Source: a virus
Reading direction: 5' to 3' (one strand)
Virus record (IMG/VR): IMGVR_UViG_3300042453_003477
Coordinates: 1 to 28,413 of that record
Length of the DNA: 28,413 nucleotides
Made by a program: the position numbers and the translations under genes
Notes under the pieces: generated by a model
The model's input: the letters and a program-made list of their open reading frames with translations, nothing else
Told to the model about the DNA's origin: nothing
The model's database searches: none
In this document: positions 19,890-28,413 of the stretch, one piece after another
Position numbering within the stretch: the first letter of the stretch is position 1
Layout of the letters: each line of letters opens with the position of its first letter

Positions 19890-20195
19890 TTGCCTTATCC
19901 GAACGAACATGCCGCCCGGCAGCGCGAGCCGGAAAACTTCGACCGCTTCATCCGGCAATCGCCGGCGTCATGGCCCGCGGGCGTCGAAGCGATCATCGGG
20001 TTTCGGCGAGTTGGCCGGCGAGAGGTGGGCGAGCTCCAAGCGATCCGGTTCGATGCCGCGCGGTGGACCGTGGAGCGCGCCCGGCGCTGGTTGCGCGCGG
20101 GCGGGTTTCGTATCGTGATCGAGCCGGCGACCGGCGATGATCAATCGGAAGGCGGCGATAACGACGGCAGCAGCCGAACGGAAACGAGCTCGTAA
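19890..20195 (+). CDS. Small protein with YPNEHAAR domain
   Basis: A 101-residue protein starting at TTG one base after the endolysin stop. It reads PYPNEHAARQREPENFDRF, and later RWTVERARRWLRAGGF. I recognise this arrangement from phage and prophage proteins, where a YPNEHAAR...W..EARAWL unit can stand alone or be fused to capsid-module proteins; its function is not established. The C-terminal 20 residues are Gly/Asp/Ser-rich. The 3' end overlaps the converging minus-strand gene by 55 bp. Start choice is uncertain because no in-frame ATG with an RBS was seen. Confidence 0.6.
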   Translation: MPYPNEHAARQREPENFDRFIRQSPASWPAGVEAIIGFRRVGRREVGELQAIRFDAARWTVERARRWLRAGGFRIVIEPATGDDQSEGGDNDGSSRTETSS

Positions 20196-20428
20196 CCGGC
20201 GAACGGTACGCGCACGCGCTCCATCCGTTGATCGGACGATTCGACCTCGTCAACGACGGCGCCGGGCAACGAAACGAGCGGCGAAGGAAACTGTTCCGAG
20301 AAAAACAGCTGGATCGAAGCGCGATCCGAGTTTCGGTAGAGGCACCAACCGGACGCGCCAAGTTGCTGCGCGGCTAGATCCCCGGCGGCGATCGCCGAGT
20401 CGAGGCCGTATTTCAGGATCGGATTCAT
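20141..20428 (-). CDS. Hypothetical protein, last gene of recombination operon
   Basis: A 95-residue protein; the ATG giving NPILKYGLDSAIAAGD makes an ATGA overlap with the upstream gene, so I prefer it over an ATG eight codons earlier. N-terminal helix, then strands with ASGWCLYRN and a long loop-rich tail with Leu/Pro/Ser. The end overlaps the convergent plus-strand gene. No family recognised. Position at the end of an SSB/ERF operon suggests a DNA-metabolism or host-interaction accessory role. Confidence 0.55.
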   Translation of the reverse strand: MNPILKYGLDSAIAAGDLAAQQLGASGWCLYRNSDRASIQLFFSEQFPSPLVSLPGAVVDEVESSDQRMERVRVPFAGYELVSVRLLPSLSPPSD

Positions 20429-20649
20429 CCTTCCCCCTTTGCGCGGAGCCATGCTTCCGCGCGTTCAATTTCAAGCACCGATACGTTGAACTTTTCGGCC
20501 CACCGCCACCGCGGCAGGTCGGGACCGAGCCGCGCGAGGACGTCGAGCTCGCCGTCAGTCAGAGCGGGCGGGCGGGCGAGCAACCAGCGGGTGCGGGCCT
20601 CCGCGACGATAGACTGACCGAGCGACGCCGTTGGAACGCCGGGGATCAA
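20425..20649 (-). CDS. Hypothetical protein (74 aa)
   Basis: A 74-residue helical protein. The C-terminal half reads LARLGPDLPRWRWAEKFNVSVLEIERAEAWLR and looks like a small helix-turn-helix-type unit with two aromatic-rich helices. It is joined to SSB upstream and to the next gene downstream by ATGA overlaps, so it is surely translated as part of the operon. No function is recognised; a nucleic-acid-binding accessory is a guess. Confidence 0.55.
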   Translation of the reverse strand: MIPGVPTASLGQSIVAEARTRWLLARPPALTDGELDVLARLGPDLPRWRWAEKFNVSVLEIERAEAWLRAKGEG

Positions 20650-21005
20650 AACGGCGTCTCGTCGTCGGCGAACGCCGGCGCAGGGCGGGCGGTGCCGTGG
20701 TCGACCGCGGGGGTGGCGCCGCGATCGCTTAGGAGCTCGACCTCGTCGGCGCGCAGCTCCATGTATGTTTTCCCGTCGTGTTCGCGCGTTTCAAGGCTTC
20801 CGCGCACGGCGACCCGCGACCCCTTGGATAGCATCGGGAGCAGCGTGGTTCCGCGTTTCCCCCAAACGGTCACACGAACCCAGTTGGTGCGGCGTTTATC
20901 GCCGAACCCTTGATCGCTGGCGATGCTGAATGAGCACCCGCCCGCCTCCGCCTTCACAGGTTCAGCGTCGCGGCCTAGTCTCCCGATTACAGTAGCATGT
21001 ATCAT
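20646..21005 (-). CDS. ssb: Single-stranded DNA-binding protein
   Basis: A 119-residue OB-fold protein. The start ATVIGRLGRDAE and the strand pair TNWVRVTVWGKRG, followed by GSRVAVRGSLETREHDGKTY, are classic for bacterial/phage SSB (NWVRVTVWGK is the hallmark strand and loop). The C-terminus ends DDETPF, an acidic tip like the DDDIPF of host SSB that docks partner proteins. It protects single-stranded DNA during replication and recombination and fits with ERF and the exonuclease upstream. Confidence 0.93.
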   Translation of the reverse strand: MIHATVIGRLGRDAEPVKAEAGGCSFSIASDQGFGDKRRTNWVRVTVWGKRGTTLLPMLSKGSRVAVRGSLETREHDGKTYMELRADEVELLSDRGATPAVDHGTARPAPAFADDETPF

Positions 21006-21670
21006 TGATCACTCCCGGGTTTTTTCTCGGTTACAGCAAGGATATTGTGGATATCACGGACTAACTCAACGTCGCGACGGCAATACTCGCGGATGCGATC
21101 GTGCTCGCCGCGCAGGTACGCCGGGTAGACCTCGGCGCCTGTCATGCCTTCGCTTTTGGCCCCGACATAGAAATACGCGGCCAGTTTCGCGAGGCTAACC
21201 CGCTCCCGGGTCGGCCCGCCGGCGATGAGCATCGTGTCGCTGAGCCACGGCCGCTGCCAGATGTGCCACGGAAGCGCGCGCGCGAGGCCGTGCTGTCCGT
21301 AGGCGAGGGCGCGAAACCAAAGGAACCGAAGGTCGAACGCGGCGAGGTTGTGCCCGACGAAACCAAGGGACCCGTGGGCGCGCGTTGCCGCTTCGTGGAC
21401 CACGCCAGCAAAACGAGCGATCAATGCTTTCTCGTCGCCGTCCTCGGCGTACAGCACCGCGGCCGGTTCGTCCTCGAACGCATACCCGATGCAGAGGATG
21501 CGCCCGGCGAGCGGGTCGAGGGCCGTCGCGCGGTACGCTTCCTCGCGATGTTCCTCGATGTAGGCGGCAATTTTCTCAGGATCTTTGTAGTTGGCCGGCG
21601 CCTTCGGTGCTGGGACCGATTCGCGGTCAGCAGCAGGCAACGTCTCGATATCGACAAACAGGTACATCAT
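21002..21670 (-). CDS. DEDDy 3'-5' exonuclease
   Basis: A 222-residue RNase H-like exonuclease. Catalytic carboxylates are visible: VDIET (Asp7, Glu9, Exo I), GHNLAAFDLRF (Asp113, Exo II) and EYCRRDVELVR (Tyr196, Asp200, Exo III, so the DEDDy subtype). The family removes 3' nucleotides, as in proofreading or stand-alone PolB-like exonuclease. Here it lies between ERF and SSB in one operon, which suggests end processing for strand annealing. It is not the usual 5'-3' exonuclease partner (RecE, lambda Exo or YqaJ). Confidence 0.88.
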   Translation of the reverse strand: MMYLFVDIETLPAADRESVPAPKAPANYKDPEKIAAYIEEHREEAYRATALDPLAGRILCIGYAFEDEPAAVLYAEDGDEKALIARFAGVVHEAATRAHGSLGFVGHNLAAFDLRFLWFRALAYGQHGLARALPWHIWQRPWLSDTMLIAGGPTRERVSLAKLAAYFYVGAKSEGMTGAEVYPAYLRGEHDRIREYCRRDVELVRDIHNILAVTEKKPGSDQ

Positions 21671-22326
21671 GGCTTAGATCCTCCGATAAATGCGTCGAGC
21701 TTCGCGCGGAAGGCTTGCCCCTGTTCTAACGCGGCGAGCAATTTCGCCCGGCGATCGGCCGGCAGTTGCGCCGGAAGGGGCTGGTTCTGATCTACGAGGT
21801 ACGCGGTCAACGCCTCGTAGTCGACTCCGAGTGCCTGTACCGCGCTGACGAACGCCGCATCTATTGTGCCCAGCGACTTTGACTTCACCGGCGATTCTTG
21901 CGCGCTACTGTGGTGGTGATCTGGATCATCGCCTGTTTCTAACATCAATAGCTGACGGATCGCATACTTGTATGCGCCGGTCATGGCTTTATACGCCGCC
22001 TTATCACCTACGTCGATTCCACAGCCGAGTGAGCAAACTTGTAGTGTCTCGCCTGAGCTGTGTGTCAGCTCGTATTCCGCATGTATGTCACAACGAAACT
22101 GGCGCGATCCTTGCTTGGTCGGAGCGTGCTCCGTCACCGTCGATACGATGCTCAGCGGTCGAAGCACTAGCCCGTTTTTGACCATCGAATCGCGAACAGC
22201 ACCGATAAACGCTGCCTCTGAGGCGTATTTGTACCGATCGCCGAACTCCGCACGACGATCTTTCTGGACATACGCAACAGAGCGCATCACTTCGGTTAGC
22301 GCCGCGCTTATCTTCGCGATCGTCAT
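21667..22326 (-). CDS. erf: ERF-family ssDNA annealing protein
   Basis: A 219-residue recombinase. Residues 1-140 match the ERF core (YKYASEAAFIGAVRDSMVKNGL, with the GDKAAYKAMTGAYKYAIRQLLML hallmark near 108-130). A His/Ser-rich linker (about 132-152, GDDPDHHHSSAQES) leads to a helical C-terminal domain. It would anneal homologous single strands and may circularise or repair phage DNA. Base composition is clearly lower in GC than in most of the window, especially 21900-22300. Its start overlaps the upstream 31-residue membrane peptide gene (ATGA). Confidence 0.9.
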   Translation of the reverse strand: MTIAKISAALTEVMRSVAYVQKDRRAEFGDRYKYASEAAFIGAVRDSMVKNGLVLRPLSIVSTVTEHAPTKQGSRQFRCDIHAEYELTHSSGETLQVCSLGCGIDVGDKAAYKAMTGAYKYAIRQLLMLETGDDPDHHHSSAQESPVKSKSLGTIDAAFVSAVQALGVDYEALTAYLVDQNQPLPAQLPADRRAKLLAALEQGQAFRAKLDAFIGGSKP

Positions 22327-22418
22327 GCCAGCACCAACAAGATGCCCAGCAGCATTGTGCAGGTGAAAGAATACGTTGCGACGTCAATAAACTCAGACCA
22401 TGTGAGCTCGCGTTCCAT
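22323..22418 (-). CDS. 31-residue membrane peptide before ERF
   Basis: A very short gene read as MERELTWSEFIDVATYSF then a hydrophobic stretch ending CTMLLGILLVLA, i.e. one predicted membrane helix at the C-terminus. It has an excellent ribosome-binding site (GGAGG, six bases before the ATG) and its TGA overlaps the ERF ATG as ATGA, so translation is coupled. The size and coupling argue for a real gene. Possible roles: leader peptide, inhibitor of host membrane function, or simply an RBS-providing leader for ERF. No family recognised. Confidence 0.7.
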   Translation of the reverse strand: MERELTWSEFIDVATYSFTCTMLLGILLVLA

Positions 22419-22454
22419 CTCGCCTCCGCTTGCGGGGGTTTCTCTCGCCCGCCC

Positions 22455-22483
22455 TTGACCTCTATTCGGGGACTGTTTACAAC
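22455..22483 (+). promoter_or_regulatory. Sigma-70-type promoter of the replication operon
   Basis: A -35 TTGACC (22455-22460), a 17-bp spacer and a -10 TACAAC (22478-22483), with the start codon of the regulator gene 21 nt after the -10. The next gene has RBS GGAGG. Good match in sequence and spacing, in a GC-rich genome where such a site is rare. It drives the regulator, zinc-ribbon, primase and helicase genes. A corresponding minus-strand promoter for the ERF operon was not convincing. Confidence 0.75.
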
Positions 22484-22490
22484 GCAAACA
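22474..22490. promoter_or_regulatory. Candidate operator palindrome
   Basis: TGTTTACAACGCAAACA is an imperfect inverted repeat (TGTTTAC and GCAAACA around AAC, six of seven arm bases pairing). It covers the -10 of the promoter above, the place for a repressor that blocks RNA polymerase. The first gene of the operon encodes a ribbon-helix-helix protein, so autoregulation is a reasonable inference. Confidence 0.5.
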
Positions 22491-22504
22491 CCAACGGAGG
22501 AAAT

Positions 22505-22741
22505 ATGGACGACACACACGACGACCGACCGGGAGGGCCGACGACCGTCGTCGCGCTGCGGCTCGCACCAAGCACGGTCCAGCGCGCGGACCGCATGATC
22601 GCACGTATGGGCGCGCTCGGCCTCGGCGCCGAGCACACGCGGTCGACGCTACTACGGTTGGCCCTGCGGTACGGGCTCGCCGACATTGACGACCGCCTGC
22701 GCGAGCTGGAAACGCTTGGTGGCAAGGTGGACGAAACATGA
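22505..22741 (+). CDS. Ribbon-helix-helix regulator
   Basis: A 78-residue protein. Residues 12-60 fit a ribbon-helix-helix fold: strand TTVVALRLAP, helix STVQRADRMIARMG and a second helix around RSTLLRLALRYGLADI. Such dimeric proteins bind palindromes in their own promoter, and the candidate operator just upstream fits. An acidic N-terminal tail (DDTHDDRP) precedes the ribbon. RBS GGAGG lies 4-5 nt before the ATG. It is first in an operon with a 4-nt overlap to the next gene. DNA-binding role is inferred from fold pattern. Confidence 0.7.
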   Translation: MDDTHDDRPGGPTTVVALRLAPSTVQRADRMIARMGALGLGAEHTRSTLLRLALRYGLADIDDRLRELETLGGKVDET

Positions 22742-22938
22742 GCCGGCTGCACTACGCGGGCGGCCTCCGCTACCGGAGCCGCGGCCGGCTGGTGCGCGTG
22801 CTCGCCGGGTGGGCGGCGTGCTGCACCGGCGAGGCCGCACAGCGGGTCGCGGACCTCGGGCTACACACCGACGATCCCGACGAAGTATCGTGCGCGAAGT
22901 GTCGGCGGTTGCTCGACCGCGCCGAGCTCGCGGAATGA
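22738..22938 (+). CDS. Small zinc-ribbon-like protein (66 aa)
   Basis: A 66-residue basic protein linked by ATGA overlaps to the genes on both sides. It contains paired cysteines: CC around residues 28-29 and CAKC near 52-55 (EVSCAKCRRLL), enough to bind one zinc if the first pair takes part. Small CxxC proteins like this are common in phage early operons and have no single assigned role. It probably acts with the regulator, primase and helicase genes that share its transcript. Confidence 0.65.
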   Translation: MSRLHYAGGLRYRSRGRLVRVLAGWAACCTGEAAQRVADLGLHTDDPDEVSCAKCRRLLDRAELAE

Positions 22939-23888
22939 CCCCGACCCCCGCACCACGCGAGGGCCGGGGCTTCCCTGTCGGGGACGCGCCCAGCCCAAGC
23001 GCCCCCACCGGCACCGTACCGGCGTGGGGGTGGAGCCGCTATCGCTCTGCGCTCGATGCGACGCCGACACGGGTGCGCGGAAGCTACCGCGACCTCGTCG
23101 CCATGCTGACGACACCACTCGACGGCAGCGCGATCGAGGACAAGCGTCGGTGCGCGGCGTGGTCGCCGGCCGTGCTGCACGAGGGTCGGCGCCGGGGAAA
23201 CGACCACGTCGAGGCCGTGTCGTGCATTGTCCTCGACTATGACGATGGAACTGACCTGCTCACCGCGCTGGACCCGTGGCGGGACTGGCCGTGCATCTAT
23301 CATACGTCGTGGAGTTGCACCGACGACGTCGCCAAGTATCGACTGGTCGTTCCGCTCGCGCGGCCGGTGCCGGCGTTGGCGTGGCGGTGGGTATGGAGGT
23401 GGGCGGCGCAGCGGGCTGGCGGCACGATCGATCCGGCGTGCTCGGATGCAAGCCGCCTTTATTTTCTACCGCATCGCCGGCCGGGGGCGCCGTTCGATAC
23501 CGGCACGCACGACCCGGGCGGGGCGCTGTGCGACCCCGACTGGCATCTGGTGGACGCTGGCACGCTGGCCGCGGTGGGGCGCTCCACGGACTCCGTAGCG
23601 CGAGAGCGGGACTGGGAGGGGCGCGACTACCGGGCCACGGCGTCGACGGCGCAGAGGGTCGCAGCGGAGGCGCTGCGGGCCGATCCCGCGGTGCGCGAAC
23701 GGGTCGGGTCGGCGCTACGAGGGGTAGTGAGGGGGACGCGGTGCCATGGGATCCGGTGCCCTGCCTGCGGGCGGGCGTCGGTCTGGTTTTTGATCGACCC
23801 AAGGGTGAAGGCCACAGCGGAATGTAACCATCGGAATAGTTGCGGGTGGTACGGGCATCTCGACCAGCTGCTAAGGGGGCAGGCATGA
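22935..23888 (+). CDS. AEP-like primase/polymerase
   Basis: A 317-residue protein resembling archaeo-eukaryotic primase-type replication proteins. A DYDDG motif (Asp101-Asp103, with the family's DhD metal pair) follows a hydrophobic strand CIVLD. A His-Thr-Ser segment at 123-125, KYRLVVPLARP from 134 and SRLYFLPHR at 173-181 match the conserved strands and helices of phage primases that accompany VapE helicases. A zinc-ribbon-like C-terminus (Cys275, Cys278, Cys297, Cys303) ends the protein. It would lay RNA or DNA primers at the phage origin. An ATGA overlap joins it to the helicase gene. Confidence 0.75.
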   Translation: MTPTPAPREGRGFPVGDAPSPSAPTGTVPAWGWSRYRSALDATPTRVRGSYRDLVAMLTTPLDGSAIEDKRRCAAWSPAVLHEGRRRGNDHVEAVSCIVLDYDDGTDLLTALDPWRDWPCIYHTSWSCTDDVAKYRLVVPLARPVPALAWRWVWRWAAQRAGGTIDPACSDASRLYFLPHRRPGAPFDTGTHDPGGALCDPDWHLVDAGTLAAVGRSTDSVARERDWEGRDYRATASTAQRVAAEALRADPAVRERVGSALRGVVRGTRCHGIRCPACGRASVWFLIDPRVKATAECNHRNSCGWYGHLDQLLRGQA

Positions 23889-25111
23889 CGGAAGCGGAGA
23901 TCATCGAACTCGTCGGCGTGCGGGTGGACGGCGGGCCGGACCCGCGGGTGCTCGCTCAGCTGAAAATGGGCGGGTCGGGTGACGAACCACGCCCACGGGC
24001 GATTCTCGAAAACTTGGCGACGATCCTCGGCGAAGATCCGCGGTGGCGGGGCAGGGTTTACTTGTCGGACCACGACGGCCGGACCTACCTCGACGGGAAG
24101 GCGATCACGGACGGCGACGAGTCTGAGGCGGCGTTATGGCTGTCGAGAAACTACGATGTGGCGCCCGGGTCGGCGCTCGTCGGCGAGGCGTTGCGGTTGG
24201 TCGGCCGGGCGAACCGCCGGCACCCGCCGCGGGACTACCTCGATCGGTGTCGGGCGGCGTGGGACGGTTGCGAGCGGATCGATCGTTGGCTGGCGACGTA
24301 TCTGGGTGTCGCGCCAGATCCGCTGTCGTCGGCGATCGGTCGGTGTTTCCTGTTGTCGGCGGTCGCTCGGTTACGCGCTCCCGGGTGCAAGGTCGATACG
24401 GTTTTGATCCTCGTCGGTGGGCAGGGCGCCGGGAAATCGACGGCGTTGCGGGTGCTTGCGGGCGAATGGTTCTCGGACACGCCGATCACGGTAGGGTCGA
24501 AGGACGTGTACGAGCAGCTGTCGGGGATTTGGATCTACGAGCTCGCGGAGCTCGACGCCTTCCGAAAGGCAGAATGGCCCGCGATCAAGGCGTTGATCAG
24601 CTCGCCCGCCGATAACGTGCGGCGCGCGTATGCCCGAAACGCGGTGATCGTGCCGCGTCAGAGCGTATGGGTCGGGACGTCGAACCGCAAGGATTTTCTC
24701 GCCGATAGCACCGGGAGCCGCCGATTCTGGCCCGTCGAGGTAGCGGCGACCGGGCCGATCGACCTGACGAACCTGCGGCGCGAGCGGGACCAACTTTGGG
24801 GCGAAGCGGTGGCGCGGTACGAGGCGGGGGAGGCGTGGTGGTTGCCCGGCGACCTCGACGCGGCCCTCGCCGATCGTGCGGAGGAATATGAGCAGGCCGA
24901 CCCGTGGGCCGCTCGGGTGGCCGCGTTCGCGAAGGGGCAGTCCGAGATCGAGATCGGCGACCTGCTTGCTCGGGCGCTCGACCGGCCCGCACACGCACAG
25001 ACACCGCATGACTCGGCGCGTGCCGGGAACCTGCTTGCCGAGCTCGGGTTCGTTCGTCGCCGTCGGCGGCGGGACGATGGATCCCGCCCGACGGTATGGG
25101 TTCGCGGCTAG
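23885..25111 (+). CDS. VapE-like replicative helicase/ATPase
   Basis: A 408-residue protein of the virulence-associated E family. Walker A GGQGAGKST (residues 178-186, Lys184), Walker B-like IYELAELDAF (Glu222, Asp224), sensor GTSNRKDF (264-271) and a GSRRFWPV arginine finger (Arg279-Arg280) appear in order. These mark superfamily-3-like ring helicases used by phages and satellite islands to start replication after priming. The N-terminal 165 residues are helical and may load DNA or bind the primase. The gene overlaps the convergent minus-strand regulator by 4 nt. Confidence 0.88.
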   Translation: MTEAEIIELVGVRVDGGPDPRVLAQLKMGGSGDEPRPRAILENLATILGEDPRWRGRVYLSDHDGRTYLDGKAITDGDESEAALWLSRNYDVAPGSALVGEALRLVGRANRRHPPRDYLDRCRAAWDGCERIDRWLATYLGVAPDPLSSAIGRCFLLSAVARLRAPGCKVDTVLILVGGQGAGKSTALRVLAGEWFSDTPITVGSKDVYEQLSGIWIYELAELDAFRKAEWPAIKALISSPADNVRRAYARNAVIVPRQSVWVGTSNRKDFLADSTGSRRFWPVEVAATGPIDLTNLRRERDQLWGEAVARYEAGEAWWLPGDLDAALADRAEEYEQADPWAARVAAFAKGQSEIEIGDLLARALDRPAHAQTPHDSARAGNLLAELGFVRRRRRRDDGSRPTVWVRG

Positions 25112-25491
25112 GCGCCGACGCACGCAAGGTAGTACGCGAGCCCGTGCCGGGCCGCGTCGGATATCGACATACCACGCTGAGCCGCGAACGCCCGCAGCGC
25201 TCGCGCCTCGGAGGCGGTGAGCCGCACGGTGACCGCGGTGTCGAGCGCTTCGGTGTCGCGACGTGGGCGACCCGCCCCGGCGCGCTTGCCACCACGAGGG
25301 GCCGACGTATCGCCGTTTATGTCGTTGACGAGCTCGACGACCGCGGCGCGCTGGTCGGCGGTGAGGCGCCCGTTGCTGGCGACCTCACGCGCGGCAGCGA
25401 TCGCGGCCTTCCGGCGCTGCGCGATCGTCATATCTTCCTCGGTCGCGAAATAACGTGTCCAGCGGATCTGTTCAGCGTTTAGAATGTCCAT
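25108..25491 (-). CDS. Second ribbon-helix-helix protein with basic linker
   Basis: A 127-residue protein. The N-terminal half is helical (RRKAAIAAAREVASNGRL); the middle has a basic Gly-rich linker GGKRAGAGRPRRD, similar to AT-hook-like sequences. The C-terminal 45 residues fit a ribbon-helix-helix domain (TAVTVRLTASEARALRAFAAQRGMSIS). Preceded by GGAG at 7 nt. It is the last gene of the minus operon and converges with the helicase gene. It is a likely DNA-binding regulator, candidate partner or antagonist of the other RHH protein. Confidence 0.7.
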   Translation of the reverse strand: MDILNAEQIRWTRYFATEEDMTIAQRRKAAIAAAREVASNGRLTADQRAAVVELVNDINGDTSAPRGGKRAGAGRPRRDTEALDTAVTVRLTASEARALRAFAAQRGMSISDAARHGLAYYLACVGA

Positions 25492-25520
25492 GTTTGTGCT
25501 CCTAAGTTGGAAACGTTCAG

Positions 25521-25826
25521 CTAGAATGTGAGCGTTACGCTTTCACTATTTGCATTTCTGATAAATAAGGCGGTTGCCCCGGCGTCTCTCGCGATGGTTG
25601 CACACGCATCAAGCGTGGTCCGGGAAATGTCGTTGTACGCCTGTCGCCAGACGCACGAGTCAATCTTGCCAAACCCGTCGCAACCGCAGATTTCCCAAGG
25701 CGTGTGCCGCCCGTTGTCCGCCGCGGCTAGAAAGGATTTGACCTCGGCGATGCTTGTGTTTTGGAATGGCAAAACTACTGAAATCATTTGCCCTCCTTGC
25801 GTTTCGTTTTCGGCGTTGTGGCTCAT
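25521..25826 (-). CDS. Hypothetical protein (101 aa)
   Basis: A 101-residue alpha/beta protein with helices around EVKSFLAAADN and TTLDACATIARDAGATALF, and a C-terminal strand SVTLTF. Cys residues at GCDG and SCVW may bind metal but no clear motif exists. The first ATG gives an ATGA overlap with the upstream gene, and GGAG precedes it; another ATG 13 codons later has a very strong AAGGAGG four bases upstream, so the true start could be either. The AT-richer composition sets it apart from the rest of the window. Confidence 0.6.
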   Translation of the reverse strand: MSHNAENETQGGQMISVVLPFQNTSIAEVKSFLAAADNGRHTPWEICGCDGFGKIDSCVWRQAYNDISRTTLDACATIARDAGATALFIRNANSESVTLTF

Positions 25827-26047
25827 ACACCGAACTCCAACATTTCAAGGCGGGTTGCCAGATCCCGCCGATAAGCCCAAAGAGACGCGAGCCGTTCTTC
25901 GGTCTGCCGTTGTGCCGGCCGCTCGCCAGCCTGCGCGATCTTGATCGTTTCGTCGATTTGTCGACTAATCTGACGCATTTCTTCGATCACGATAGAGGCG
26001 CGCTCTTGGTTTTTCAGCGGGATATCGGCAATATTCGGCGTATACAT
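25823..26047 (-). CDS. Small coiled-coil protein (74 aa)
   Basis: A 74-residue protein that is nearly all helix and charge-rich: NQERASIVIEEMRQISRQID, then an acidic/basic helix RQTEERLASLWAYRRDLATRL. It looks like a helical hairpin or coiled coil. RBS AAGGGGG lies four bases before the ATG, and the promoter at 26098-26126 lies upstream. First gene of the minus operon. The function is unknown; an anti-repressor or regulator-partner role is possible only by position. Confidence 0.6.
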   Translation of the reverse strand: MYTPNIADIPLKNQERASIVIEEMRQISRQIDETIKIAQAGERPAQRQTEERLASLWAYRRDLATRLEMLEFGV

Positions 26048-26072
26048 CGGTCCCCCTTGTCTCGTTTATCGT

Positions 26073-26091
26073 CGTCGGCGACGCTGCCGAC
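26073..26091. repeat. Inverted repeats at the minus promoter start site
   Basis: Two overlapping inverted repeats: CGTCG-G-CGACG at 26073-26083 and GTCGGC/GCCGAC (26074-26079, 26086-26091) around a 6-base loop. They sit at and just after the expected transcription start of the minus operon. They could be an operator or an mRNA hairpin. The first is the reverse complement of the 11-mer at 4029-4039 in the capsid leader. Confidence 0.5.
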
Positions 26092-26097
26092 ACAGGT

Positions 26098-26126
26098 AGA
26101 ATACTGCATCGGTATTCAACGTGCAA
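26098..26126 (-). promoter_or_regulatory. Minus-strand sigma-70-type promoter
   Basis: Read on the minus strand: -35 TTGCAC (26126-26121), 17-bp spacer, -10 TATTCT (26103-26098). Both hexamers and spacing are good. It drives the three-gene minus operon that starts at 26047. The transcription start should fall near 26091, which places the inverted repeat below in the early transcribed region. Confidence 0.75.
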
Positions 26127-26227
26127 GGGAAAAGCACAACGTGGACAGAGTGGACAAGCGATGGACTGATCCCTGTCCACGGCGGCACAAGGTGAAACCT
26201 ACGTTTTCGAGGTGGACGACTGGAACG

Positions 26228-26269
26228 ATTGAATCTGACAAGATCCTCATAAAAGAGAAATTATATATA
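26228..26269. other. AT-rich island in divergent region
   Basis: A 42-nt stretch with only about 24% G+C in a genome near two thirds GC, ending ATTATATATA just before the G-rich run. It lies between the left and right groups of hexamers. Such islands serve as DNA unwinding elements in iteron origins. A -10-like TATATA is present but I found no -35 element 16-18 bp away, so a promoter here is not supported. Confidence 0.65.
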
Positions 26270-26297
26270 GGGGGGTGGGTGGGGGTAGGGGTCAGGG
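26270..26297 (+). other. G-quadruplex-forming motif
   Basis: Plus-strand G-runs of 6, 3, 5 and 4 separated by loops T, T and TA (26270-26291), with another GGG at 26295-26297. Loops of one to two bases predict a very stable parallel quadruplex. It abuts the AT-rich island directly, so melting there would free the G-rich strand to fold. Confidence 0.8.
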
Positions 26298-26446
26298 CTC
26301 ACCGCCCGGTGGACGTCAGAGTTTTGGACGTTTTCAATCGTCCACCTGTCCACCGGCGCAAAGTGGCGCTATACCTAGTCTGTCGCTGGACAGGGGGCTG
26401 TCCACCGCCCTGTCCACGCCTGTCCACGCTGTCCAGAGGGGGCCGC

Positions 26447-26764
26447 ATGCCGATACCGCCGGAAACCGTCGCCGCGCAGGCTCGCCGCGGACTCGCGCTG
26501 CGGGCCAGTCTCCCGCCGTCGCGTCGTGGGGGAACCTCGATCGGGCTCGCGCGGGCGAACCAGCTGGCGAACCGGGAGGAAGTTTCGATCGACACGATTC
26601 GCCGGATGATCAGCTACTTCGACCGCCACGAAGTCGACAAAGAGGGCGAGGGCTGGGGCCGGGACTCGCGAGGCTACCAAGCGTGGTTGCTCTGGGGCGG
26701 CGACCCGGGCCGTCGTTGGGCGCGCGAGGTATGGGCGGAGTATGTTCGCGAGGGGGGCGCATGA
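26447..26764 (+). CDS. Hypothetical phage protein with WLLWGGD signature
   Basis: A 105-residue protein starting PIPPETVAAQARRGLALRAS, followed by VSIDTIRRMISYFDRHEVDK and GYQAWLLWGGDPGRRW. I have an impression of this architecture from other phage proteins, where it appears alone or as a domain in larger proteins, with no assigned enzyme activity that I can name. AGAGGGGGCC upstream is a good RBS. It is the first gene right of the repeat-rich region and ends in an ATGA overlap, so it may respond to whatever binds the array. Confidence 0.65.
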   Translation: MPIPPETVAAQARRGLALRASLPPSRRGGTSIGLARANQLANREEVSIDTIRRMISYFDRHEVDKEGEGWGRDSRGYQAWLLWGGDPGRRWAREVWAEYVREGGA

Positions 26765-27093
26765 TCCGACCGTTTGCTGCACCGACCGATGCAGAGGCCG
26801 CGGCCGTCGGCCGGCGCGAGCTTGTGCTACGCTGGATCGCTGAGTCTCGGGGCTGGGATGCCTCGCACGGCGTATTGTTCTGGAAAACGTCGGAGGGCTG
26901 GTGCCTTTCTGTCGTCGAGGGGTTCGTCATTACGAGTGCCGAGGGGGCGACTCGGGATGATGCGATCCGCGACCTCTGGCGGCGCACCGTCGAAGCGCGG
27001 CAGCTGCGGCACTACGTCGAGGACCGCAGCGCTGACCGGGCGCAGCTGGCAGCGCTCGGTGAACAGCTCGGGCTGGTCAAGGGGGGCGCATGA
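26761..27093 (+). CDS. Hypothetical protein (110 aa)
   Basis: A 110-residue protein joined by ATGA overlaps to both neighbours. It has a helix (AAVGRRELVLRWIAESRGW), a beta region with HGVLFWKTSEGWCLSVVEGFVITS and a C-terminal helical half (RDDAIRDLWRRTVEARQLRHYVED). The mix suggests a small enzyme-like or regulatory domain, but I do not recognise a family. The RBS GGGGGG sits three bases before the ATG. Confidence 0.6.
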   Translation: MIRPFAAPTDAEAAAVGRRELVLRWIAESRGWDASHGVLFWKTSEGWCLSVVEGFVITSAEGATRDDAIRDLWRRTVEARQLRHYVEDRSADRAQLAALGEQLGLVKGGA

Positions 27094-27269
27094 TCGGGCA
27101 GTACGTGGAATGGTGGGTCGCGGACGGTGGGGGCTATCGGCGTCACCCGGCGCGGCCGGGTTGTTCGACGCCGGCTCGGTGCGCGGCGTTGTCCCGCGAG
27201 CGGCTGGCGCTGTGGGGTTGCCTTTGTGCGCAGGCCCAGCGTGAGGCCGAACTGTTGAGCCGCGCATGA
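27090..27269 (+). CDS. Small Cys-containing protein (59 aa)
   Basis: A 59-residue protein with ATGA overlaps at both ends and a G-rich RBS (AAGGGGGG) before its ATG. It begins IGQYVEWWVADGGGYRRHP and has Cys25, Cys31, Cys44 and Cys46 (C-x5-C...C-x-C), which could hold one zinc. The C-terminal half is helical (LSRERLALWG, then AQAQREAELL). No family is recognised. Overlap structure and codon use favour a real gene. Confidence 0.6.
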   Translation: MIGQYVEWWVADGGGYRRHPARPGCSTPARCAALSRERLALWGCLCAQAQREAELLSRA

Positions 27270-27847
27270 GTCGGCGAGCGGCGCCGCGGCCGGTGCGCAC
27301 GCCTACCGGGGACTGGCAGGTAGCGATCGACCCGGGGAACAATGGGGCGATCGTTGCGGGGCGGGTGGTTGACGGGCGGCTATGTGTCGCGGCGGCGGTG
27401 ACGTGGACGCACCGCGTCCGGAAGGCGGGGCCTTGCTGGGCGGTGCGGGCCGGTGGTGAGGGCTGGGGGTCGCACGAGCGGACGACCGGATCGCTTTACG
27501 CGGTGGGCGAGGGGTTCGCTCGATGGTGCGACGAGCTTAGCGTCGGCGCGTACCGGCTCACGGTCGAGGGCCTATTCGGTCGAGGGCCGACGTTGGAGCG
27601 GCTCTCGTGGTATGCGGGCCTTGTGGCTGGTCCGTTGCTCGACGGGGCGGTTGGGCCGGTCGAGCGGCCGCTGGCGACCTCGTGGCGCTCGGAGGTGCTC
27701 GGAGTCCGCGGGGGTACACCCGCCGACGAGGCGGAACAAGCGGCGATCGAGTGGGCACGGTCGAACGTGCTTGGGGCGGGTGGCGTCGCCGGCGTGGGCC
27801 ACGTCGCCGAGGCGTGCGCGATCGCGTGGTGGCGGGCGTGTCGGTAG
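27266..27847 (+). CDS. RuvC-like Holliday junction resolvase
   Basis: A 193-residue RNase H-fold protein. IDPGNNGAI (Asp22) matches RuvC motif I, VEGLFGR (Glu101) the second acidic site, and GHVAEACAIAWW (His179, Glu182) the C-terminal motif, where RuvC usually has two Asp. The His/Glu variant is still plausible for metal binding. It would cut four-way junctions left by ERF-driven recombination or replication, before packaging. The ATG overlaps the previous gene by ATGA. Alternative: a related RNase H-like nuclease of other role. Confidence 0.7.
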   Translation: MSRRAAPRPVRTPTGDWQVAIDPGNNGAIVAGRVVDGRLCVAAAVTWTHRVRKAGPCWAVRAGGEGWGSHERTTGSLYAVGEGFARWCDELSVGAYRLTVEGLFGRGPTLERLSWYAGLVAGPLLDGAVGPVERPLATSWRSEVLGVRGGTPADEAEQAAIEWARSNVLGAGGVAGVGHVAEACAIAWWRACR

Positions 27848-28338
27848 GGCTGGACGTCGGCGCGAAGTTTGCCGACATTCGGCGGTTGACGCGCACGCAT
27901 CCCTTGTGGCGGGTGGCGGTTGCGCGGGGGCTGGATCCTGACGACGTGCTGCAAAGTGTCGTCCTTGGTCTACTCACGAGGCAGCAGGGGCGATCGCGGT
28001 ATGACCCCGCTCGGGCGTCGTTCTCGCGATACGTCTACCTCGTGGCGGGCTCGGTGATCGCGAACCTGCTCGACTCGCAGCGGGGGCGGAACCGGCGCGA
28101 GGTGCTCGGCGACCTCGACGACGCGGCGCGCTCGGCGAGCGGGGAGGCGGTCGACGACGAGGCCGATCTAGTCGTGCGGTTGTTCGCGCTGTTGGTTGCG
28201 GACGGGCACGAGCCGCGGATCGTTTTGCTGCTCGTGGACGGCGGCTCGGTCGCGGTCGCACGTCGTCGGCGCGGCGGGCAGCTTGCGGACTCTATCGCCG
28301 CGCGGATACGCTCAGAGCTGGGGGCGGGCGATGCGTAG
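27838..28338 (+). CDS. Sigma-factor-like protein
   Basis: A 166-residue protein. Residues 33-85 resemble sigma-70 region 2: DPDDVLQSVVLGLL, then RYDPARASFSRYVYL and SVIANLLDSQRGR, which map onto regions 2.1-2.4 where -10 DNA and core RNA polymerase are contacted. After an acidic linker, residues 115-160 are helical and might be a degenerate region 4 (VVRLFALLVADGHEPRIVLLL, then DSIAARIRSELG). It overlaps the resolvase gene by 10 nt; GTGs at 27826 and 27829 are alternative starts. A late-gene sigma or host RNA polymerase modifier is inferred. Confidence 0.6.
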   Translation: MSVGLDVGAKFADIRRLTRTHPLWRVAVARGLDPDDVLQSVVLGLLTRQQGRSRYDPARASFSRYVYLVAGSVIANLLDSQRGRNRREVLGDLDDAARSASGEAVDDEADLVVRLFALLVADGHEPRIVLLLVDGGSVAVARRRRGGQLADSIAARIRSELGAGDA

Positions 28339-28347
28339 GGCTGGGGC

Positions 28348-28413
28348 ATGGCAGCGCAGGCGATCGGGCGAAAACCATGGGAAAACCTAGGCCGCATACC
28401 CCGGGGTGACCTT
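28348..28413 (+). CDS. Partial ORF running off the window end
   Basis: An ATG nine bases after the previous stop, preceded by a TGGGG run, opens 22 codons (AAQAIGRKPWENLGRIPRGDL) with no stop before the last base. Whether it continues cannot be seen. If the sequence is a closed circle, the next codon at the window start would be TGA and the peptide would be only 22 residues. No family can be assigned. Confidence 0.35.
   Translation, partial: MAAQAIGRKPWENLGRIPRGDL

Follow-up and report, generated by a model that had tools for sequence, protein, structure and literature searches.

A two-sided iteron array as a probable VapE-bound replication origin of the SaPI/PICI-like type in a phage contig

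The repeat array at positions 26141-26436 of the window (the whole stretch of DNA analysed here, 28,413 nucleotides of IMG/VR virus record IMGVR_UViG_3300042453_003477) is probably the replication origin of a tailed phage, of the SaPI/PICI-like rep-ori type, to which the phage's own VapE protein would bind with its winged helix, a reading to which we assign a probability of about 0.8. With their C-terminal winged helix, hexamers of this VapE-family AAA+ helicase would bind both sets of TGTCCAC iterons; they would then melt the intervening AT-rich island and load onto the opened strands, whereupon replication would begin with the neighbouring primase. An origin bound by a phage initiator had already been put forward in the preliminary description of this DNA; it is well supported by the presence of iterons 3′ of VapE in many relatives and by co-variation between iteron bases and VapE residues. 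From such sequence evidence we infer that the window VapE binds its own array; melting, loading, and origin function at the array are likewise putative. Because of these limits, and because the cumulative GC skew, which had been suggested as a check, shows no switch at the array and lends no support, we class the array with the SaPI/PICI rep-ori module as a variant, not as a strict member.

Exact counting across the window bears out the roughly ten exact and four near copies of the GTGGAC/GTCCAC hexamer that had been reported for some 300 bp: ten exact and four near copies lie within 26141-26436, and the near copies are considered real because 14 GTCCA/TGGAC cores are counted in the array. The whole record contains 28 exact hexamers per 28,413 bp (shuffle mean 15.6), ten of which fall within 26141-26427. 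The densest 300 bp of the record hold ten exact hexamers, as opposed to four at most in 200 first-order Markov shuffles, which places the array far above chance, as claimed. Nor is the hexamer equally dense elsewhere, an objection that had been anticipated: its density is 33 per kb inside the array versus 0.64 per kb in the rest of the record, and the array is the top-scoring bidirectional hexamer cluster of the record.

The extended repeat unit is mostly CTGTCCAC[G/C], and the 14 GTCCA cores are split between two sets of short iterons, which, like the array itself and the island between them, carry no strand assignment. The left set (26141-26217) comprises exact copies at 26141, 26150, 26175, and 26212 and a near copy at 26162; the right set (26309-26436) comprises exact copies at 26309, 26340, 26348, 26400, 26412, and 26422 and near copies at 26325, 26387, and 26431. 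Spacings within clusters (9; 8; 12, 10, 9) agree with the 8-12 bp given previously. The description of the copies as mainly opposite in orientation on the two sides of an AT-rich island also holds, because three of the four exact copies to the left read GTGGAC and five of the six to the right read GTCCAC. The island itself, TCATAAAAGAGAAATTATATATA at 26247-26269, has a G+C content of 13%, the lowest of any 23 bp of the record, and is the proposed melting site. It is adjoined on the plus strand by a G-run stretch, GGGGGGTGGGTGGGGGTAGGGGTCAGGG (26270-26297), that fits a G-quadruplex pattern.

The record is a virus contig with genes for a major head protein, endolysin, Erf, SSB, exonuclease, a primase-like protein, and the VapE helicase, together with a weak large-terminase match (gene 416-1867). 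PICI satellites are marked by the lack of a full structural gene set of their own, and the head protein and endolysin genes and the weak large-terminase match place the record outside that definition. No named phage matches positions 20141-28413 by megablast. The VapE gene (PF05272, Pfam E 5.5e-73), encoding the proposed self-loading initiator, occupies 23885-25111 on the plus strand. It is preceded on the same strand by a primase-like gene of uncertain start (22686-23888; phrog_9765, E 1.5e-16); among the 19 loci with a relative of this gene, many have that relative upstream of VapE. The intergenic region that houses the array (26048-26446) is divergent, as had been noted, and is flanked by a minus-strand ORF (25823-26047) and a plus-strand ORF (26447-26764), the latter being the first gene of the right-hand operon, with a phrog_2859 domain (E 5.4e-18). 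Further along this side, the reading frame 27844-28338 has a weak match to sigma-70 region 2 (E 2.3e-4, under the Pfam cut-off).

The array begins 1,030 bp beyond the VapE stop and hence is not directly 3′ of the rep gene, the position that it takes in most relatives having an array. Three minus-strand ORFs (25108-26047) intervene: a gene for an RHH-like small protein (25108-25491; weak RHH_1, NikA-like, and Arc-like matches), which is a candidate rival binder or autoregulator, and two small ORFs (25521-25826 and 25823-26047). Since the nearest VapE relatives carry their array at the stop codon (+8 in L325 and +11 in L326), an insertion or rearrangement in the ancestry of this phage is the likely cause.

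The structure predicted for the window VapE is that of a SaPI-Rep-like helicase with a C-terminal DNA-binding domain, as judged from PF05272, the closest solved structure, and the predicted fold of the C-terminus. The AF2 model (pLDDT 95) is most similar to PriRep1 with dsDNA (7pds; Foldseek E 1.6e-27, TM 0.81, 23% identity), which we take to be a SaPI-type Rep and whose entry is named ‘similar to D. nodosus vapE’. The C-terminus (residues 342-408, encoded at 24908-25111 on the plus strand) is predicted to form a winged helix with helices at 342-349, 357-364, and 374-386 and strands at 389-393 and 403-407, and is the proposed iteron reader; searched in isolation, it has weak fold matches, several of which are winged-helix regulators.

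The placement of arrays was surveyed in loci gathered by VapE alone (80 viral, 80 bacterial, and 13 from named phages), which, with a few from an array scan, amount to 187 loci and 68 representatives at 80% identity. For each representative, the top bidirectional cluster of exact 6-8-mers was compared with a null threshold. A cluster above the threshold is present in 46 of the 68 representatives, and the remaining 22 have no array by this exact k-mer test. In 36 of the 46, the top cluster falls between 60 bp before and 900 bp after the VapE 3′ end, and in many cases begins less than 100 bp past the stop; in ten, including the window (+1030), it lies elsewhere. The array words are lineage-specific, e.g., CCACACC, TGCCACA, and GTGTGTCA, or, among named phages, GATGCAAC in Staphylococcus phiSa2wa, GTATCCA in Enterococcus phiFL4A, GGTTGTTA in APSE-1, CGGGACAA in Corynebacterium CL31, and CACCCCAC in Marinobacter PS3. 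A fixed place combined with a changing word is what is expected of a co-evolving initiator and origin.

Short words bearing on the island and on the G-run stretch recur within the VapE-linked arrays. TATATA occurs inside the arrays of 10 of 39 loci (0.86 expected), and TATAGG (8 versus 0.77 expected) and TAGGGG (7 versus 0.64 expected) are likewise enriched in these 39 arrays. The test for an AT island in other VapE arrays gave a moderate result (14 of 34 below 0.1). We claim no sharper core motif, because a motif search in masked spacers recovered a TATATA-rich patch alone (likelihood 98, against 61-72 for random regions).

Evidence for VapE as the reader comes from a Pseudomonas-type VapE clade whose iteron is either TGTCCCA or TGTCCTA, i.e., has C or T as base 6. 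Residue 699 (L341 numbering) is arginine in all 55 TGTCCCA loci and lysine in all 34 TGTCCTA loci, and is the sole perfect splitter of the 89 loci among 738 VapE columns; these loci represent 42 unique proteins (28 TGTCCCA and 14 TGTCCTA). Two tied loci with mixed arrays and equal counts of both words (L359 and L390) each have lysine at the specificity position. The base-6 trait switches three times on a core-domain tree. In one locus (L348), the core groups with the lysine/T lineages, yet the C-terminus is of the arginine type and the iterons are TGTCCCA, which suggests that reader domain and origin were exchanged together, as in a recombinant. The best predictors of iteron base 1 (columns 700, 703, 706, and 677) also all belong to the C-terminal domain, which makes up 12% of the columns. 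Residues 699-706 of the clade map to the wing region of a winged helix that is predicted with confidence, and the window residue that aligns with residue 699, R391 (25055-25057), lies in the first wing strand of the predicted fold. The link between base and residue derives from a single clade with three switches; in the iteron of the window, base 6 is A. Across all lineages, motif similarity and C-terminal similarity correlate weakly (rho 0.12, permutation p 0.06, Mantel test), so the rule is demonstrated for this clade only. Among the families of neighbouring ORFs, the only other perfect split occurs in ORFs that overlap the array, where the splitting codon is the iteron itself; a neighbouring ORF family was rejected as specificity partner on this ground.

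The same comparisons bear on an operator cluster, by which a phage regulator such as the RHH-like protein (25108-25491) would switch the two divergent operons. The array does lie between divergent genes, the RHH-like gene is located two genes away, and a dual use is conceivable, since an origin-bound helicase may also silence flanking promoters. However, the arrays of relatives lie 3′ of VapE whichever genes come next, no relative of the three intervening ORFs, or of the two genes that come first to the right of the array, occurs in other VapE loci, and in the related clade the iteron bases track residues of VapE. We consider regulation as the main role of the array unlikely. Of the binders named in the preliminary description, the VapE-like protein is the likely one, whereas no finding points to the RHH or small helical proteins.

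Arrays of the window's own word are not confined to VapE loci. IMG/VR was scanned for three TGTCCAC at short gaps and, as a control, for the reversed word, each yielding at least 120 matches; arrays were defined by at least five copies with at least two per strand. Among the matches listed, bidirectional arrays account for 56 of 120 with TGTCCAC versus 1 of 120 with the reversed motif, whereas all spacings are multiples of 3 in 106 of 120 control matches versus 25 of 120 TGTCCAC matches; the control-word matches are in-frame coding repeats. Among the matches listed, 62 bidirectional TGTCCAC arrays were compared with genes of at least 350 aa: 17 are no more than 300 bp away from the 3′ end of such a gene, and none is at a 5′ end. 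The array-abutting genes examined encode mostly replicative helicases (with VapE, DUF3987, DUF927, AAA_25, or DUF5906 domains) and one integrase. A tyrosine integrase gene (L062:4970-6787) has a TGTCCAC array 7 bp from its 3′ end. Helicases unrelated to VapE are abutted at their 3′ ends in DUF3987-like (L046, L064, L067, L109, and L118), DUF927 (L048 and L121), and AAA_25 loci (L054 and L076), with group-specific flanking bases, such as C at +7 in 80% of the sites of the DUF3987 group. Because TGTCCAC arrays also adjoin such unrelated helicases, the motif alone cannot name the binder.

A separate, podovirus-like group of about 25 loci (L006, L009, L012, L014, L074, L102, and about 20 others) has arrays of TTGTCCACA in tandem, spaced at exactly 9 bp, in which TATCCAC is the commonest variant, near genes read as small and large terminase subunits. 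These arrays could be origins, pac sites, or DnaA boxes. If the window array likewise served the small terminase subunit as a packaging (pac) site, the tandem arrays of this group would be its precedent, and the right-hand operon could reach the large-terminase-like gene (416-1867) in a circular genome. Yet no terminase gene adjoins the array (neither flanking ORF, 25823-26047 or 26447-26764, matches terminase), VapE-linked arrays mostly abut the helicase, and no terminal repeat indicating a circular record was found, which makes packaging very improbable. Equally remote is the notion that the repeats are host DnaA boxes from which DnaA recruits the phage helicase: the TTGTCCACA type of DnaA box includes TGTCCAC, and TATCCAC variants occur in the podovirus-like arrays, but the ninth position is not A in any of the ten exact window sites, so that 9-mers ending in CACA (TTATNCACA or TTGTCCACA) are absent from all ten, and the motifs of VapE-linked arrays differ widely by lineage (GTATCCA, GATGCAAC, GGTTGTTA), unlike a conserved host box.

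The VapE-bound origin proposed for the window may be one case among many. The odds seem about even that VapE tailed phages form a large class with lineage-specific iteron origins just past the 3′ end of the helicase gene, that the wing of the C-terminal winged helix reads these iterons under a rule that pairs arginine with TGTCCCA and lysine with TGTCCTA, and that the TGTCCAC word shared beside VapE, DUF3987, DUF927, and AAA_25 reflects exchange of iterons plus reader, or convergence, between unrelated helicases. A helicase-bound origin layout known to date from parasitic genetic islands is apparently common in ordinary phages. For most tailed phages, the origin has yet to be mapped. If the proposal is true, the origins of such VapE phages could be identified and assigned to their own helicase from sequence alone, and a two-sided array of a single 7-mer immediately after the VapE stop would mark the origin in many of them. 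Ordinary phages would then join SaPIs and PICIs in using the rep-ori layout, and the base-residue pair would allow helicase-origin specificity to be tested using natural variants.

In theta plasmids (iterons) and in lambda (O sites), repeats bound by an initiator are likewise clustered close to an AT-rich region that melts; there, a non-helicase initiator recruits the host helicase. In the window, by contrast, the helicase would itself read the repeats, which are shorter and occur in both orientations. The alpha protein of phage P4 is a primase-helicase initiator that reads short iterons; its repeat, GGTGAACA, resembles GTGGACA, a likeness that serves as a lead only.

Further parallels exist among staphylococcal elements and related islands. 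The C-terminal domain of the SCCmec helicase Cch2 (D5-type) binds direct repeats directly downstream of its gene at a putative origin (PMC7581432), but it belongs to a different helicase branch and has three 5-nt iterons, as opposed to the 14 cores in two sets of the window. SaPI Rep reads, with its C-terminal domain, iterons directly downstream of its own gene (PMC7581432), and PICI origins consist of two iteron sets around an AT-rich region 3′ of rep (PMC6092414). The window shares with the pri-rep-ori of SaPIs and PICIs the two iteron sets, the AT-rich middle, and the Rep-like helicase, but differs in belonging to a phage with head and endolysin genes and in its iteron, CTGTCCAC; moreover, the SaPI/PICI array adjoins rep, whereas that of the window lies 1 kb from the helicase gene, with three opposite-strand genes between. 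The theta-plasmid and lambda O parallels drawn in the preliminary description are less close than this SaPI/PICI rep-ori module (PMC6092414, PMC7581432).
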